Shown here in pieces: positions 4,544 to 13,635 of a DNA stretch of 33,419 nt (positions are counted from its first letter, which is position 1; every line of letters begins with the position of its first letter). Source of the DNA: a virus; the IMG/VR virus record IMGVR_UViG_3300042309_001463, positions 1-33,419 of that record. The stretch is one strand, 5' to 3'. A program made the translations under genes and the position numbers. Below the pieces are notes generated by a model, which was given only the letters and a program-made list of their open reading frames with translations, had not been told where the DNA came from and did not search any database.

Positions 4544-5041
4544 TCAGGCGGCGGCTAGCTGGCGGTGTGCGGCAGGCTGCTTGGCCTCGCTGGTGAAACC
4601 CTGATAGCCGTATTTGGCGGCCAGCGTCTCCAGCCCGCCGGGGTTGCTGCGGCTCTTGCCGCACCATGCGGGCTTCCAGTACCAGCAGCTGCGGCCGGAG
4701 TGCCAGCGGCACTGCTGAGCCTTGAGCTGATCCTTGACGGGCTTGGTGTCACCCTGCACCCAGATCCAGTAGCCGATCAGGCTGATCTCTAGGTTGGGGA
4801 TCTTGAGCAGTTCAGCGATCACATCCATGATCTCCTGCTCCGACTTGGCGTTGTACTTGTAGGTGCGGCCGTCGCTGGTCTTGCCGTTCTGGCCACTTAG
4901 GGCAGCGTGGTAGGCGGCATTGATCGCCTTCATGGTCTCCAGGTCGCCGCCGAGGTCGGGGTGGTGCTGGCGGGCGAGATCGCGGTAGGCGCGCTTGATT
5001 TCTTCAGGGGTGCTGAGGCCGGCGAAGTAGGTGGCGGTCAT
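4544..5041 (-). CDS. J-domain (DnaJ-like) protein
   Basis: The 165-residue product has an N-terminal J domain: EEIKRAYRDLARQHHPDLGG with the HPD motif at about residues 27-29, followed by MKAINAAYHAAL. J domains stimulate the ATPase of Hsp70 (DnaK). The C-terminal part (IGYWIWVQGDT, then CRWHSGRSCWYWK) matches a Trp-rich module found after J domains in several phage and plasmid proteins. No G/F or zinc region is present. The ATG at 5041 is chosen because a CACTCGCCA leader box and hairpin lie just upstream. A terminator follows the gene. It may recruit host DnaK to replication or assembly; this is inference. Confidence 0.85.
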   Translation of the reverse strand: MTATYFAGLSTPEEIKRAYRDLARQHHPDLGGDLETMKAINAAYHAALSGQNGKTSDGRTYKYNAKSEQEIMDVIAELLKIPNLEISLIGYWIWVQGDTKPVKDQLKAQQCRWHSGRSCWYWKPAWCGKSRSNPGGLETLAAKYGYQGFTSEAKQPAAHRQLAAA

Positions 5042-6012: not shown

Positions 6013-6336
6013 TCACACTTCCGCCAGCAGCTCGCGGAACTGCTCCAGGCTCATCACCACAAACTGATCGGCCGGGTCCGTGGTGCCCTTGCGCTTCACC
6101 ACCAAGGCATGGAGGCGCTTGCCGGCGTTGACCTGCTGCTCCATCGCATCGCGCAGCCAAGCGCCGAGGCTCAGGGTGCGGCAGCACTTCGCCTGAATTG
6201 CACAGCTCGGTGTCCACAAATCACCCCGGTCAAGGGTGGCACCGGCGGGGATGCGCTCGCAGGGCATGCGCTCCGCCAGGTAGTCGCAGATCAGCCGCTC
6301 AAAGGCTGAGCCCTTGCGTTTCTGGGGGTTGGCCAT
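6013..6336 (-). CDS. PD-(D/E)XK nuclease, Holliday-junction-resolvase-like
   Basis: The 107-residue protein has the layout of small Hjc-like phage nucleases: KRKGSAFERLICDYL with Glu13, then DRGDL with Asp39, then AIQAK with Lys50, followed by a helical half ending in VVMSLEQFRELLAEV. The usual Glu of the ExK motif is Gln48 here, which could lower or change activity, although the family tolerates such swaps. Such enzymes resolve branched DNA during phage recombination and before packaging. It lies 3 nt past the stop of the preceding gene and is part of the replication region next to the origin candidate. Confidence 0.7.
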   Translation of the reverse strand: MANPQKRKGSAFERLICDYLAERMPCERIPAGATLDRGDLWTPSCAIQAKCCRTLSLGAWLRDAMEQQVNAGKRLHALVVKRKGTTDPADQFVVMSLEQFRELLAEV

Positions 6337-6339
6337 GGA

Positions 6340-6726
6340 TCAAGCGCCGAGACGTGCGGCGAGTCGCTGCAGAGCAGTCTGAGGGCAGCAGCTGCTCTCC
6401 ACCTCGCTGCCGTCGGGCAGGTAGATCGCGTTGCGCTGATACGGCTCCAGGGTGATGGGCGGGTCGTAGCTGGGGATAGGCAGCGGCCGCACCCACTCGC
6501 GGCGCCACCAAGCCACCAGGAAGCCATGGAGCAGCACTGCACGCTGAGCCTCTCCAGGCTGCGCCTGTGGGTCGGCGCGGGGCAGCCAGTCGCCGAACGT
6601 GAACGGACAGGGCCGCAGGGGCGCCGCTGCGGGGGCTGCAGGCGACGGGGCGGGTGTGGGCACCGGCGGAGTGGTCGAGGCGCCTTCCTGGGCCACCGCG
6701 GCGCGCAGCTGCTGCAGGACGTTCAC
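6340..6726 (-). CDS. Hypothetical protein with Pro/Ala-rich N-terminus
   Basis: The product is 128 residues, starting at a GTG (6726). Residues about 15-40 are a disordered Pro/Ala run. The remainder (FTFGDWLPRADP, VLLHGFLVAWWRREW, IYLPDGSEVESSCCP, LQRLAARLGA) looks folded but is not recognised. A GTGC-type promoter lies close upstream, giving a very short leader. It is followed by the Hjc-like nuclease gene. Function unknown; the context suggests replication or recombination. Confidence 0.6.
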   Translation of the reverse strand: MNVLQQLRAAVAQEGASTTPPVPTPAPSPAAPAAAPLRPCPFTFGDWLPRADPQAQPGEAQRAVLLHGFLVAWWRREWVRPLPIPSYDPPITLEPYQRNAIYLPDGSEVESSCCPQTALQRLAARLGA

Positions 6727-6747
6727 GGCATGGCGGCGGGTAGGGGC

Positions 6748-6776
6748 ATCCTACCGGCAGATGCACCCATCCGCAC
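6748..6776 (-). promoter_or_regulatory. GTGC-type promoter (GTGCGG, 17 nt, TAGGAT)
   Basis: On the minus strand GTGCGG (6771-6776), a 17-nt spacer ending in CGG, and TAGGAT (6748-6753) form one of five matching promoters. It would fire into the GTG-start gene at 6726. Confidence 0.65.
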
Positions 6777-6810
6777 GAAAACACCGGATTTCGGAGGGTT
6801 GGGGGTGTTT

Positions 6811-7189
6811 TGGGACATTTGGGACACTTGGGACAGCACTGTCCCAAAGCAGAAACAGCATCAGCACTGGCAGGTTGCCCGTGTTTTGGGACTTTGGGAC
6901 ACCTCTAGGGACATTTCCATCCATACCTATGGGACTAGGTACTAATACTTAAATAAATAATAGAAAAGGTATTTTCTTAGGAGCTGTCCCAAAGTCCCAA
7001 AACTTGCCCAGATCCGTTGCGCCGCAGTCGATTTGCTCTGGGACACTTCTGTCCCAAACTGTCCCAAAAGTCCCAAAACGCAGTAGACCCGCCCTTCTCG
7101 GCACCATCCCCGGCGCCTGAAACTGCAGGCAGGGACAGGCCTGCCGCTGCATGGGACAGCCGCGCAGCAGCTTTGGGACGTGTCCCAAA
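6811..7189. other. Candidate replication origin: TGGGAC iterons around an AT-rich island
   Basis: The 539-nt gene-free stretch 6727-7265 contains 16 exact TGGGAC/GTCCCA hexamers within 379 nt. Plus-strand copies start at 6811, 6820, 6829, 6887, 6895, 6930, 7039, 7152 and 7174. Minus-strand copies start at 6841, 6986, 6994, 7051, 7061, 7070 and 7182. AGGGAC variants lie at 6907 and 7131. The first three are spaced exactly 9 nt. Two pairs form palindromes with 8-bp arms and a 2-nt gap (6829-6846 and 7172-7189). The middle (about 6938-6978) is strikingly AT-rich for this genome. The adjacent gene encodes a primase-helicase. Iterons plus an unwinding element fit a phage origin; an operator array is the alternative. 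Confidence 0.7.
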
Positions 7190-7194
7190 AGGGC

Positions 7195-7249
7195 GTCAGC
7201 TCAGCTGACACCCTCAGTTGAAATGAGGGTGGCCGGGATTTCCGGCCAC
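7195..7249. repeat. Three adjacent perfect hairpins
   Basis: The hairpins are GTCAGCT/AGCTGAC with a 1-nt centre (7195-7209), CCCTCA/TGAGGG with a 7-nt loop (7211-7229), and GTGGCCGG/CCGGCCAC with a 5-nt loop (7229-7249). They lie between the iteron array and the 3' end of the primase-helicase gene. There is no T-run, so an origin structure is as likely as a terminator. Confidence 0.6.
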
Positions 7250-7265
7250 GGTGGAGCAGTGCGGC

Positions 7266-9860
7266 TCAGTCGCCGGGTGGCACCCACTCCACAGCCTTGC
7301 CCTTGCGGATCACCTGCCCGCAGTCGGGCGTCTCGGCCACTACGGATAGCAGCCAAGTGCGCACCTCAGCGGCAGGGGTGCGGCGAGCAGGGAGGCACCA
7401 TGCTCTGATCTGCGACTGAGGCACGGGCCGGCCGCCATGACTGCGGCGCCACTCGCGGCCCTTGTCGAGCAGCCGCTTGATTGCCCCGCCTGCGCCTGTT
7501 CGCACCGGGCCGAGCACCTTGTCCCGCTCACGGGCGAAGAGGGCCGTAAAGATGATCGCGGCGCGAATCACGTCTTCAGGGATGGGGGTGTTCAGGCTCA
7601 GCCCTGCAGAGGCCTGCCGGATGGCGTGAATGGCCAGGGCGATGCGGAGGGTGGCGCCGCGCTGCTTGCCCCAATACTGCCGGTCAGATGGATCGCTGGC
7701 GGCGAACTTAAACGACTCCGCCTGTCTGACCCACTGAACCATCGTGGCCTTGGCATCCTCGGCCACGGTGATGATGATCGGCTCGCCATCTTCACCAAGC
7801 GGTAGATTCGATGCGGCAGCGTCCACCTGCTTGTAGAGGTTGGTGACCGCAGGGGCGATCAGCACGGTCGAGTCCTGATAGTCGTAAGCCCACTCGCCTA
7901 GGTCGAACATCAGAAAACGGCTCCACAGTCCGTCAGCGTCCGCCATGCCCTCATTGGCATCGGCGTCCGCTTTCCACAGGCCTTCGAGGCGTGCCGGCTG
8001 CAAGCTGCCGAACAGGGAGACGGCAGGGTTGGGCACGAAGATCGAATCGCGCCCCACCCGGTCGGTGATGATCTGCTCTCCGGGGTAGAGGCTGAGCCAT
8101 TTCGCCCGATCGCTGCGGTTCGGTGCGCGGCACAGCTGAGAGAACCACCCGGCGAGCTCATCGTGCACGGCCAGTAGGCCTGGATTGGATCCGTTGCTGA
8201 GGATCATTTCAATCCGCTCAAAGGTGGCGTCGCTCACCAGCAAGTGCCGCAGCTCAGGTTGTGGGTTTTCCGCAAGGAACTGGGCCATAGGATCGCCGCT
8301 GGCGCCGCCTGACTCAGAGGCCGCGGCCTTCGCCTCACGCTCCGCCTGGGCCCGGCGATGCTTCCAATCCGCAAGCGCGTCGGCGTGTCGCTTGCGTTCC
8401 TGCGCCTGCCACGGCTTGAACGCCTGCATCGTGGTCGGGCCGGAGGTTGGGGACTTGCCCGAGCTGGCGGTAGCGATGTTGGCACCCCATAGCACACAAG
8501 CCTCCTTCCATGCGTGGGTGGGCGTCATGGCCACCCTGGCGCGGTTGCCGATGACAGAGCACACGCTGCAGAGGATCGGCAGCAGAAAGCCGCAGGGCTT
8601 GAGGGTCTGCTCCTTGGCGTAAGTGTTGATGAAGCTGGCCAGGCCAGGCGGGAATGCCAGATCGATCGATGCCAGCTCAGCTGCCGCGGCCACGTCGCGG
8701 TAGTTGCGGATTTCAACCGCAAGCTCTTGGCGCTCGATGTCATCGCCCTCCTCATCCGGCTCCAACTGCCACGGCGGCAGCTCCACCGGCGCATCAGGCG
8801 GGATGAACTGCTCGCCGTTGAGGGGTGGGGTTGGCGGCGGCGGCTTGGGGATGTCGTGGCGCTTCACGTCCACCCCGGCAGCCTTGCATTGCTTGATGAA
8901 GCTGCCGGCGTCGAACTGATCGAACTTCCAGCGGTCCACCTGCTCGAAGGTGTCGGCCGCCTGGGGGTGGTAGCGGCTGGCCAGGGCGATCGCGTCGAGC
9001 TTGCCCTTGCCGATCAACTCCATGCAACGCGCCAAACCACAAACCAGCCGCAGCGCCTCCTCGCGTTGGCCGTTCTTGGCCAGGATCTGCGGGTAGCTGC
9101 TGACCAGCCGCTCCAGCTCCTCATAGGTGCGCGGCTGATCTGCTGCTGCGCTCCGGGTTGGTGCCGCTGGGGCTGGCGCTGGTGCTGGCGGCTCAGGTTT
9201 CGGCAGCTCCGGCAGCCGCTCCTCGAACACGTCCGCTGAGTAGATCGCCGCTGGGCTGTGGCGGATCATGCGGGCGGGGTGGGCGCCCAGGCTGCCGCCG
9301 ATGCTCTGGCCATCGGGGGCCAGGTCGTCGCTCTTGTGGATGTAGCTGCTGCCCGCCAAGCGCATCAGTCGCGAGGGGTTTTTGCAGGTGGGGTCCGATT
9401 TGCAGTAAGCGATCAGCCGCTGAATCAGCGGGCGCCAGCGCTCAGGGGCGATGGGCTCGCTGAGGCGCCAGTAGGCATGGACGGACTTGCCGCCAGTGGC
9501 CAGCAGTACGGTCGGCTCGGGCAGTCCGAGGGCCTGCCATGCCCCCACCTGCCACTCCATGGGCTGCTCATCCCATTCGACGAACAGGAAGCTGCAGGCC
9601 TTCACGTCAGCGTCGTTCGGCCCGCCGTTGGGCAGCCAGTACAGCCGATAGCCGGCCTGCTGCAGCTGCTCCAGCCGGGCCCCCCGTGGTTGGAAGGTGG
9701 GTGCCAAGTGCACAGCCCGCTCGCCCTTGGGCTCGTGATTCTTGTCCCAGTGGATGGCGCGGTAGTGCACCGCCGACGGCTCAGCGCCGAGGGCCTGCAG
9801 AAAGGACAAGGCCGCAGCGCCATCGAAGCGGGGCGCCCCGGCGTGATCGAGTGGCTGCAT
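7266..9860 (-). CDS. Primase-helicase: RepB-type PrimPol plus DUF3987 domain
   Basis: The 864-residue replication protein has two parts. The N-terminal part looks like an archaeo-eukaryotic (RepB-like) primase: FLFVEWDE with Glu95/Asp97 as metal ligands, ATGGKSVHAYW with His128, and SRLMRLAGSSYIHK. A Pro-rich linker and a PriCT-like helical stretch follow (about 220-380). The C-terminal part matches DUF3987, a P-loop helicase-like domain: SIDLAFPPGLASFI, Walker A ATASSGKS (about 463-470) and Walker B LLAVHDE (Asp567-Glu568). It likely primes and unwinds at the adjacent iteron region. The start follows the RHH gene stop by 5 nt. Large opposite-strand frames here are shadows. Confidence 0.88.
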   Translation of the reverse strand: MQPLDHAGAPRFDGAAALSFLQALGAEPSAVHYRAIHWDKNHEPKGERAVHLAPTFQPRGARLEQLQQAGYRLYWLPNGGPNDADVKACSFLFVEWDEQPMEWQVGAWQALGLPEPTVLLATGGKSVHAYWRLSEPIAPERWRPLIQRLIAYCKSDPTCKNPSRLMRLAGSSYIHKSDDLAPDGQSIGGSLGAHPARMIRHSPAAIYSADVFEERLPELPKPEPPAPAPAPAAPTRSAAADQPRTYEELERLVSSYPQILAKNGQREEALRLVCGLARCMELIGKGKLDAIALASRYHPQAADTFEQVDRWKFDQFDAGSFIKQCKAAGVDVKRHDIPKPPPPTPPLNGEQFIPPDAPVELPPWQLEPDEEGDDIERQELAVEIRNYRDVAAAAELASIDLAFPPGLASFINTYAKEQTLKPCGFLLPILCSVCSVIGNRARVAMTPTHAWKEACVLWGANIATASSGKSPTSGPTTMQAFKPWQAQERKRHADALADWKHRRAQAEREAKAAASESGGASGDPMAQFLAENPQPELRHLLVSDATFERIEMILSNGSNPGLLAVHDELAGWFSQLCRAPNRSDRAKWLSLYPGEQIITDRVGRDSIFVPNPAVSLFGSLQPARLEGLWKADADANEGMADADGLWSRFLMFDLGEWAYDYQDSTVLIAPAVTNLYKQVDAAASNLPLGEDGEPIIITVAEDAKATMVQWVRQAESFKFAASDPSDRQYWGKQRGATLRIALAIHAIRQASAGLSLNTPIPEDVIRAAIIFTALFARERDKVLGPVRTGAGGAIKRLLDKGREWRRSHGGRPVPQSQIRAWCLPARRTPAAEVRTWLLSVVAETPDCGQVIRKGKAVEWVPPGD

Positions 9861-9865
9861 CAGGA

Positions 9866-10030
9866 TCAGGCCTTCGCTTTCAGCTGCGCGTCTGCCTGCT
9901 CGATCAGCATGCGGACAACGGCGCTGCGGGTGTCAACCCCGGCTGTGGCGGCGGCGATGCGGTCGAGCGCCTCGACGTGACCTGGCTTGACCATCACGTT
10001 GAGGGGGATGCTGCGGGCTGTGGCCGGCAT
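9866..10030 (-). CDS. Ribbon-helix-helix (CopG/Arc-like) regulator
   Basis: This 54-residue protein has a strand followed by two helices: SIPLNVMVKPGHVEALDRIA, then TRSAVVRMLIEQA, the classic RHH pattern of small dimeric repressors. It is encoded immediately upstream of the primase-helicase and divergently from the nuclease/helicase operon, with only 37 nt between the two start codons. It is therefore well placed to control both directions and perhaps replication copy number. No other domain is present. Confidence 0.75.
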   Translation of the reverse strand: MPATARSIPLNVMVKPGHVEALDRIAAATAGVDTRSAVVRMLIEQADAQLKAKA

Positions 10031-12447: not shown

Positions 12448-13122
12448 ATGCCCACAGCACGCGGGGCTGATGCCGCCCCGATTGATGAACTGCTGCCGCC
12501 GAACTGCGGCCCCACGTCGCAGCAGCTCGCCGCCCTTGATGCGGCAGTGGCTGCCGCATTCCCTGCGTTCGGCAGCCTGGCTCCGAACGACGCAGCCGAC
12601 ATCAAGGGCCGGCGTCACGCCTTCCTGAACCTGCCAGGGCTGCTGGAGGCCGTCCGCCCTGCCTTGATGGCGCAGCAGGTGATCATCGCCAACACCATCA
12701 GCATCGTGCCGGGTGGGTTCGTGGTGTCCACCATGCTGCGGCACAGCGGCGGCGGCTGGCGACTGTCCCAGTTCCCGGTGCTCAGCCTGACCAGCTCCAG
12801 CGCGATCAGCGCCGCGGCCACCAGCGGCTTCAGGGTGAATTTGCAGCTGCTGCTCGGTATCTGCGCCTCCGATGAGGATGCAGCGCATGATGCGGCGCCT
12901 GCTGCAGCTCCACAGCCGTGGGAGCAGCCGGCGCCGGCGGCGCCCGCCTATGCCGCTCCGCCCCAGCAGCAGCCCTGGGCTGCTGCTGCTCCACAGGGCG
13001 GCTACGACATGACCCAGGCGATCCCTCAGCACGAAATCGCCGCCGCTGTCGCTGCTGCCCAACAGCAGCCCAACTCGCTGCAGTATCAGCCCACCCCAAC
13101 CGATCCCTCCGCTTACGTCTGA
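12448..13122 (+). CDS. ERF-like single-strand annealing protein
   Basis: The 224-residue protein has an N-terminal domain matching the ERF pattern: a helix (LPGLLEAVRPALMAQQV), strands VVSTMLRHSGGGWRLSQFPVL, and the helix-strand segment that in ERF reads GSAxTYxRRYxLxxxLGI, here AISAAATSGFRVNLQLLLGI followed by acidic residues. The family's Tyr/Arg residues are not kept, so it is divergent. The C-terminal 90 residues are a Pro/Ala/Gln-rich linker with a short terminal helix. These proteins anneal complementary strands in phage recombination. The neighbours are an SSB-like protein and a RecB-like exonuclease, which support the call. Confidence 0.65.
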   Translation: MPTARGADAAPIDELLPPNCGPTSQQLAALDAAVAAAFPAFGSLAPNDAADIKGRRHAFLNLPGLLEAVRPALMAQQVIIANTISIVPGGFVVSTMLRHSGGGWRLSQFPVLSLTSSSAISAAATSGFRVNLQLLLGICASDEDAAHDAAPAAAPQPWEQPAPAAPAYAAPPQQQPWAAAAPQGGYDMTQAIPQHEIAAAVAAAQQQPNSLQYQPTPTDPSAYV

Positions 13123-13125
13123 TCC

Positions 13126-13635
13126 ATGAAGAGTGCACGTGTGAACCTCTGGAACGCCCAGCCGTCCCAGAACCCGAAGGCTCCGATCTTGAGCGGTTCC
13201 GTCGAGCTGTCCGCCCAGCTGATCTGGGAGCTGTCCCAGGCGATGCAGCAAGGCCAGGGAATGGAAGTGAACCAGCAGACCGGGGAGCAGTTCTTTAAGC
13301 TGCGCCTCTCTGTTTGGCGCGGCACCGGCGAGAACAACGGGCCGGTGTTGAACGGCACAATCGAGAGCCTCTCTGAGCGGGCAGCCTACTTGGCGCAGAA
13401 GGCACAGCAGCAGGGCGGTCAGTCTTGGGGTGCCCCTGCTGCCCCGCCCCAGCAGCCCGCCTACGGGCAGCCTGCCCCACAGCCTGGGCCTGCTGGGTAT
13501 CCGCCGCAAGCGGCGCCGCAGCAGCCGCCTGCCGGGCCGCCAGCGGGCTACCCTGCCGCGCCTCCGCCGGCTGCTCCGCCAGCAGCAGCACCGCCCGCCT
13601 GGGGACAGCCTGCCGCCGGCGGGTGGGGCAGCTGA
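13126..13635 (+). CDS. Probable single-stranded DNA-binding protein (non-canonical)
   Basis: The product is 169 residues. The first 90 are beta-rich (VNLWNAQ, ILSGSVEL, FKLRLSVWRG, VLNGTIESL) and could form an OB fold. The rest is a disordered Pro/Ala/Gln/Gly tail ending in GGWGS, the architecture of SSB proteins. It lies 3 nt after the ERF-like gene and directly before the exonuclease gene, where an SSB is expected. No sequence motif proves ssDNA binding, so the call rests on architecture and context. Confidence 0.5.
   Translation: MKSARVNLWNAQPSQNPKAPILSGSVELSAQLIWELSQAMQQGQGMEVNQQTGEQFFKLRLSVWRGTGENNGPVLNGTIESLSERAAYLAQKAQQQGGQSWGAPAAPPQQPAYGQPAPQPGPAGYPPQAAPQQPPAGPPAGYPAAPPPAAPPAAAPPAWGQPAAGGWGS

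Follow-up and report, generated by a model that had tools for sequence, protein, structure and literature searches.

A mirror-symmetric array of repeats beside a PrimPol-DUF3987 gene as the probable replication origin of a cyanosiphovirus-like virus

In phage-inducible chromosomal islands (PICIs), replication is supported by two sets of iterons that lie directly 3' of the initiator gene, on either side of an AT-rich region (PMC6092414). That paper gives the iteron sequences element by element and states that this layout is shared by no other known bacterial replicon. For the Staphylococcus aureus pathogenicity islands (SaPIs), PMC7581432 reports that the C-terminal domain of Rep reads iterons downstream of its own gene, and that Cch2 does likewise. 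Here we describe a locus in a 33,419-bp virus contig (IMG/VR record IMGVR_UViG_3300042309_001463, analysed over its whole length and referred to as the window), in which an array of TGGGAC/GTCCCA hexamers lies directly 3' of a gene encoding a PrimPol-DUF3987 protein. On comparative sequence evidence, this array is very probably the bidirectional replication origin of the virus, built on an exchangeable word and opened by the DUF3987 helicase half of the protein.

The array is flanked by the DUF3987 gene, which stops at 7266, and by the next conserved gene, which starts at 6726. It contains 16 exact hexamers (6811-7187) of the 25 found in the whole window, leaving nine elsewhere, while shuffled sequences predict 0.22 per 379 nt (Poisson P ∼1e-24). 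Two AGGGAC variants are located at 6907 and 7131, and three hexamers (6811, 6820, 6829) are spaced by exactly 9 nt. Two palindromes with a 2-nt gap were identified, one at 7172-7189 (TTTGGGAC-GT-GTCCCAAA, arms of 8 bp) and one at 6828-6847 (TTGGGACAG-CA-CTGTCCCAA, arms of 9 bp). An AT island at 6938-6978 is composed of 33/41 A+T (80%), compared to ∼35% in most of the window. An initial annotation, which had read this array as a candidate replication origin next to the PrimPol-DUF3987 gene, had already listed the 16 hexamers and two variants, the 9-nt spacing, the gene-free setting, the AT-rich stretch in otherwise GC-rich DNA and a chance expectation of well under one copy. These claims all held, and the comparative evidence presented below supports the origin reading itself. 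Both palindromes that it described are present, with the 8-bp arms assigned to each of them correct for one only; the hexamer, which it allowed might be equally dense elsewhere, was not so within the window.

The mirror symmetry of the array, not mentioned in that annotation, was found in the follow-up. Twelve sites form six pairs (6811/7070, 6820/7061, 6829/7051, 6841/7039, 6887/6994 and 6895/6986) that share a common centre at 6942.5-6943 to within 1 nt, with offsets of approximately ±46, ±54, ±99 (in the opposite orientation), ±111, ±120 and ±130. This putative origin core, with two-fold symmetry about 6943, extends over 6811-7075. It comprises a left outer arm (6811-6846, plus strand; sites 6811, 6820 and 6829 on the plus and 6841 on the minus strand), a left inner pair (6887-6900, plus strand; sites 6887 and 6895, 8-nt spacing), a right inner pair (6986-6999, minus strand; sites 6986 and 6994), and a right outer arm (7039-7075, minus strand; site 7039 on the plus and 7051, 7061 and 7070 on the minus strand). 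The AT island, presumed to be the unwinding element, lies between the inner pairs, with its richest part somewhat off the symmetry axis. Four exact sites (6930, 7152, 7174, 7182) are unpaired or outside the symmetric core. The extra sites adjoining the initiator gene (7131-7187: AGGGAC at 7131, TGGGAC at 7152 and 7174, GTCCCA at 7182) are kept in most class-A relatives, and the unpaired plus-strand TGGGAC near the AT island (6930-6935, relative position -10) is degenerate in several relatives, together with the weaker AGGGAC at 6907-6912. The 12 positions of the core are preserved in all class-A relatives whose site layouts were compared.

To the window, viral scans added 26 other contigs for an analysis of natural domain swaps, a few of which cover only part of the locus. 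A proline-rich linker at about residues 345-365 divides the PrimPol-DUF3987 protein, and each of two primase halves (Na and Nb) was found with each of two helicase halves (Ca and Cb, 43% identical): Na-Ca (window, L003, L004), Na-Cb (L005, L013), Nb-Ca (L006-L008, L010-L012, L014-L016, L018, and L009 by its partial primase half) and Nb-Cb (L062-L064). Every Ca contig carried 14-18 copies of TGGGAC within one 400-nt stretch, and every Cb contig 6-8 copies of GGTGGAAT within a 400-nt stretch. TGGGAC was not clustered in the Cb contigs, nor was GGTGGAAT in the Ca contigs. The primase half was rejected as the reader of the word, since Na and Nb each occur with both words. A separate cluster of ∼15 CCCCAGC copies was noted in L014 (∼13050-13450), distant from its origin array.

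The extent of the exchange was delimited by blastn. Between the window and L005, 94% identity runs through the primase half to window position 8768, no homology is detectable from 8768 down to 6802, and 93% identity resumes beyond 6802, with the breakpoint 10 nt outside the array. A single block of 1.97 kb has thus been replaced, and this exchange cassette (6802-8767, minus strand) comprises the helicase half and the whole array. Homology likewise returns at the outer edge of the array between L018 and L064, and between the window and L069. The converse exchange separates the window from L018, in which the primase half is replaced and the helicase half, array and downstream genes are 93% identical. 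Downstream genes are unaltered when the word changes.

The small ribbon-helix-helix (RHH)-like protein encoded upstream of the initiator was also considered as the specificity factor and was rejected, since allele and word do not go together. The window (TGGGAC) and L005 (GGTGGAAT) encode versions with 93% identity, while L003 (TGGGAC) and L064 (GGTGGAAT) carry near-identical alleles that differ from that of the window. As the primase half swaps without a change of word, the candidate reader could be narrowed to the DUF3987 half (aa ∼365-864); with the primase half excluded and the RHH protein disfavoured as binder, the helicase half remains. Of the two binders named in the initial annotation, the PrimPol-DUF3987 protein is therefore retained, apparently through its DUF3987 half, and the RHH protein is not. 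The search of relatives proposed there did find the array beside the DUF3987 gene, its word varying with the helicase half.

Two further words occupy the same scaffold. L069, whose helicase half shares 51% identity with Ca, has an array of TGACCAG around an AT island, and L082 and L148, with helicase halves 58-59% identical, have arrays of TAGCRC around an AT island. The sites of each array were placed on the 12 positions of the window, allowing ±3 nt and requiring the same orientation, and were compared with 2000 random placements. All 10 exact sites of L069 fitted the scaffold (random maximum 7), as did 8/10 in L082 (random maximum 7) and 7/10 in L148 (p=0.002); L013 (6/8) and L035 (6/7) were each above what random placements normally reached. 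The exact word of L005 gave 4/6, which was not significant (p 0.03-0.17), and a relaxed consensus matched 8/12 scaffold positions (p=0.002), the relaxed consensus sequences having been picked after inspection of the data. The window and L069 have no alignable DNA across the array; site positions have therefore been kept while the sequence has not. Whichever of the four words is used, an AT island separates the arms. In L082 (1613-4290) and L148 (5437-6487), other sequence is found between the DUF3987 gene and the array, and the L082 array remains upstream of a homologue of the 128-aa gene that follows the array in the window.

The surroundings of other, unrelated DUF3987 genes were then compared, using PF13148 genes sampled from genomes of the class and phylum (Pseudomonadota) of a gammaproteobacterial metagenome-assembled genome (MAG) that gave the only host match described below. 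Arrays were called by a fixed statistic exceeding that of shuffled sequence at p<=0.04. They were found 3' of the gene in 11/28 cases and 5' in 0/24 in the first of two sets, and in 20/56 versus 4/51 when the sets were pooled (Fisher p ∼0.0009). The array words vary among these loci, often forming inverted arms with a 9-nt period. In L106 (2841-3110), ∼15 copies of TAACACA lie directly 3' of a proteobacterial DUF3987 gene, and inverted copies lie farther away. L105 (2905-2990) and the DNA downstream of the DUF3987 ORF (open reading frame) in L103 have arrays of TGTAGCA or TTAGCAA in inverted arms; these adjoin unrelated DUF3987 genes, and similar words occur at several loci.

The last 75 residues of the protein (aa 786-860; 7281-7505, minus strand) were modelled by AlphaFold2 (on A3) as a winged helix of three helices followed by two strands (H-H-H-beta-beta; predicted local distance difference test score, pLDDT, ∼87), and a longer model shows the same elements. 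Foldseek gave weak matches between this domain and numerous proteins that contain winged helices, all of them at E 0.001 or above. A fold search with the helicase-half model gave chance-level matches only, and a sequence search of solved structures gave no real match for the PrimPol-DUF3987 protein. The predicted winged helix is the putative reader of the repeated word.

A mechanism can be proposed from these features. The C-terminal half (DUF3987 helicase plus winged helix) would bind the repeated word, and two sets of protomers, probably two hexamers, would assemble in mirror orientation, one on each arm. They may then open the AT-rich island that they enclose and separate as two forks, for which the N-terminal PrimPol half would synthesise primers. 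Hexamer loading, island melting and bidirectional forks are thus the conjectural steps. The origin reading draws directly on the array and its mirror symmetry, their conservation beside the gene, the fact that helicase half and word are exchanged together, independently of the primase half and RHH gene, and a geometry common to four words.

Several results weigh against this reading. The helicase half adjoins the array, and linkage alone would move both together; the conserved geometry with changed words is what linkage alone leaves unexplained. The second set of DUF3987 genes, with arrays 3' in 9/28 and 5' in 4/27 cases, was weaker and not significant alone, and at the majority of the tested genes no array could be detected. 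The initiator gene and the array are 1-2.7 kb apart in L082 and L148. The helicase core was modelled poorly (pLDDT 57.8). GC skew over the window, which the initial annotation had named as a check, does not clearly reverse at the array.

Three other explanations were weighed. The array might be an operator cluster through which a phage regulator controls the downstream 128-aa gene and RusA, or expression of the initiator. The conserved gene following it on the same strand and the similarity of the RHH-like ORF to small repressors agree with this, and we still consider it very unlikely: the RHH alleles do not track the word, the downstream genes are unchanged as the word changes, no sigma-70-like promoter was found in 6300-7300 (phage-specific promoters were outside the search), and an operator needs no 265-bp mirror-symmetric layout around an AT island. 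The array sites themselves matched no promoter or terminator consensus. Some plasmids use iteron arrays and small RHH proteins for partition, and the locus could on this model be a centromere-like partition or incompatibility locus of a plasmid-like prophage. This is the least probable of the three, as no ParA-like gene was present among the window proteins scanned (a subset of the ORFs), the word tracks the helicase half rather than the RHH protein, and the AT island near the symmetry centre would be left unexplained.

Plasmid iterons can also act in negative control (handcuffing). If the initiator bound the array only for copy-number control or for control of its own synthesis, with the true origin elsewhere, the failure of GC skew to point to the array would fit. 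We regard this as slightly less probable than an operator cluster, given that each of the four word classes retains the AT island within its symmetric core and that the layout is the same as that of the tested PICI origins (PMC6092414).

The presumed initiator (7266-9860, minus strand; 864 aa) matches PF13148 over aa 427-784 (E=6.5e-48; 164 bits, against a Pfam gathering cut-off of 27). This helicase domain (7509-8582, minus strand) contains the Walker-like motifs SSGKS and HDEL. The N-terminal primase half (aa 1-345; 8826-9860, minus strand), exchangeable independently of the array according to the domain combinations of the relatives, includes a part with 41% identity to the Cyanophage S-2L PrimPol over 162 aa. 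On the same strand are the RHH-like ORF (9866-10030; 54 aa, no Pfam match), the conserved 128-aa gene directly beyond the array (6340-6726; ∼90% identity in most relatives, irrespective of the word) and a RusA-like Holliday junction resolvase (6013-6336; phrog_244, E=8e-20). A hairpin, GTGGCCGG-AAAT-CCCGGCCAC, closely follows the DUF3987 stop at 7220-7250, and L069 has a similar one near 4615-4645; the window hairpin was not called a terminator because it has no T run. Searches for known RNA families and tRNAs found none in the window.

The window also encodes terL, terS, a portal fragment, an endolysin, a sigma factor, an Erf-like annealing protein and an exonuclease. The contig is cyanosiphovirus-like (Synechococcus-siphovirus-like). 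Its terminase is 73% identical to that of Synechococcus phages S-CBS1 and S-CBS3, which makes a Synechococcus-like host likely. A host search in GTDB genomes returned no close homologue, the one match being a gammaproteobacterial MAG at 31%.

These results propose a function for a domain still labelled as of unknown function, and indicate that a PICI-like origin layout also exists in a phage that encodes its own packaging functions. With natural recombinants of all four kinds, the half of the protein that goes with the word can be singled out, and four words on one scaffold provide a test set for changes of winged-helix specificity under a fixed geometry of initiator assembly. It is possible, though we hold it short of probable, that DUF3987 helicases are a widespread and undescribed class of self-loading origin initiators. 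In this phage group they would act on a fixed mirror scaffold of ∼265 bp whose geometry is kept and whose word is replaced, and phages would swap helicase plus origin as one cassette, whatever their primase half, perhaps as a way of evading satellites or co-infecting phages that share the origin word. Among non-subscription DUF3987 papers that mention an origin of replication, none mentions iterons; an earlier description is possible.

Several described systems share some of these features. S-CBS1 and S-CBS3 resemble the window in having a helicase with winged-helix-like domain matches and short repeats around an AT-rich stretch, but the helicase is of the AAA_25/RepA type and the repeats lie inside the 3' part of its gene. 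In S-CBS1 (L087, 28710-28880) these are GTGCGAAAC/TTTCTCACC and in S-CBS3 (L088, 31515-31680) TTTGTCACC/GGGACAAAC; in each case they flank the AT-rich stretch, and they may mark an origin within the gene in these two cultured cyanophages. The Cyanophage S-2L PrimPol differs in its C-terminal half, which is VapE-like (PF05272) rather than DUF3987, and no clear iteron array follows its gene; no array was found in DSL-LC05. In Rep_3/RepA iteron plasmids the adjacent gene belongs to a winged-helix Rep family and the iterons are direct repeats, whereas the window has a PrimPol-DUF3987 helicase gene and a mirror-symmetric rather than purely direct array. The PICMI (phage-inducible chromosomal minimalist island) satellites of Vibrio are alike in that their replication requires a primase gene, one defined by DUF3987/DUF5906 (PMC10803314); they are satellites, not phages, and the word iteron is absent from that paper. 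According to PMC7581432, Cch2 of SCCmec (staphylococcal cassette chromosome mec) is a self-loading helicase with a C-terminal dsDNA-binding domain, as is proposed for the window protein, and likewise has direct repeats downstream of its gene and a primase partner, but it is D5-like and its putative origin has three 5-bp repeats, with no mirror layout described.

The closest comparison remains that with PICIs and SaPIs. Unlike these, the window initiator carries PF13148 (DUF3987) only, and not DUF927 or D5/Primase_Cterm; unlike the helper-dependent PICI satellites, the window has terL, terS, a portal fragment and an endolysin; and neither an exact mirror scaffold nor primase/helicase half-swaps were found in the available parts of the PICI and SaPI papers. 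The system was not filed as a PICI because the helicase family differs and it sits in a phage. As in PICIs and SaPIs, the sites (7187 to 6811) lie immediately 3' of the initiator gene (stop 7266) and two iteron sets flank an AT-rich region. SaPI Rep reads its iterons through a C-terminal domain; the window protein has a predicted C-terminal winged helix, and the word tracks the C-terminal half. By analogy, the locus may resemble PICI/SaPI origins in the way it works.
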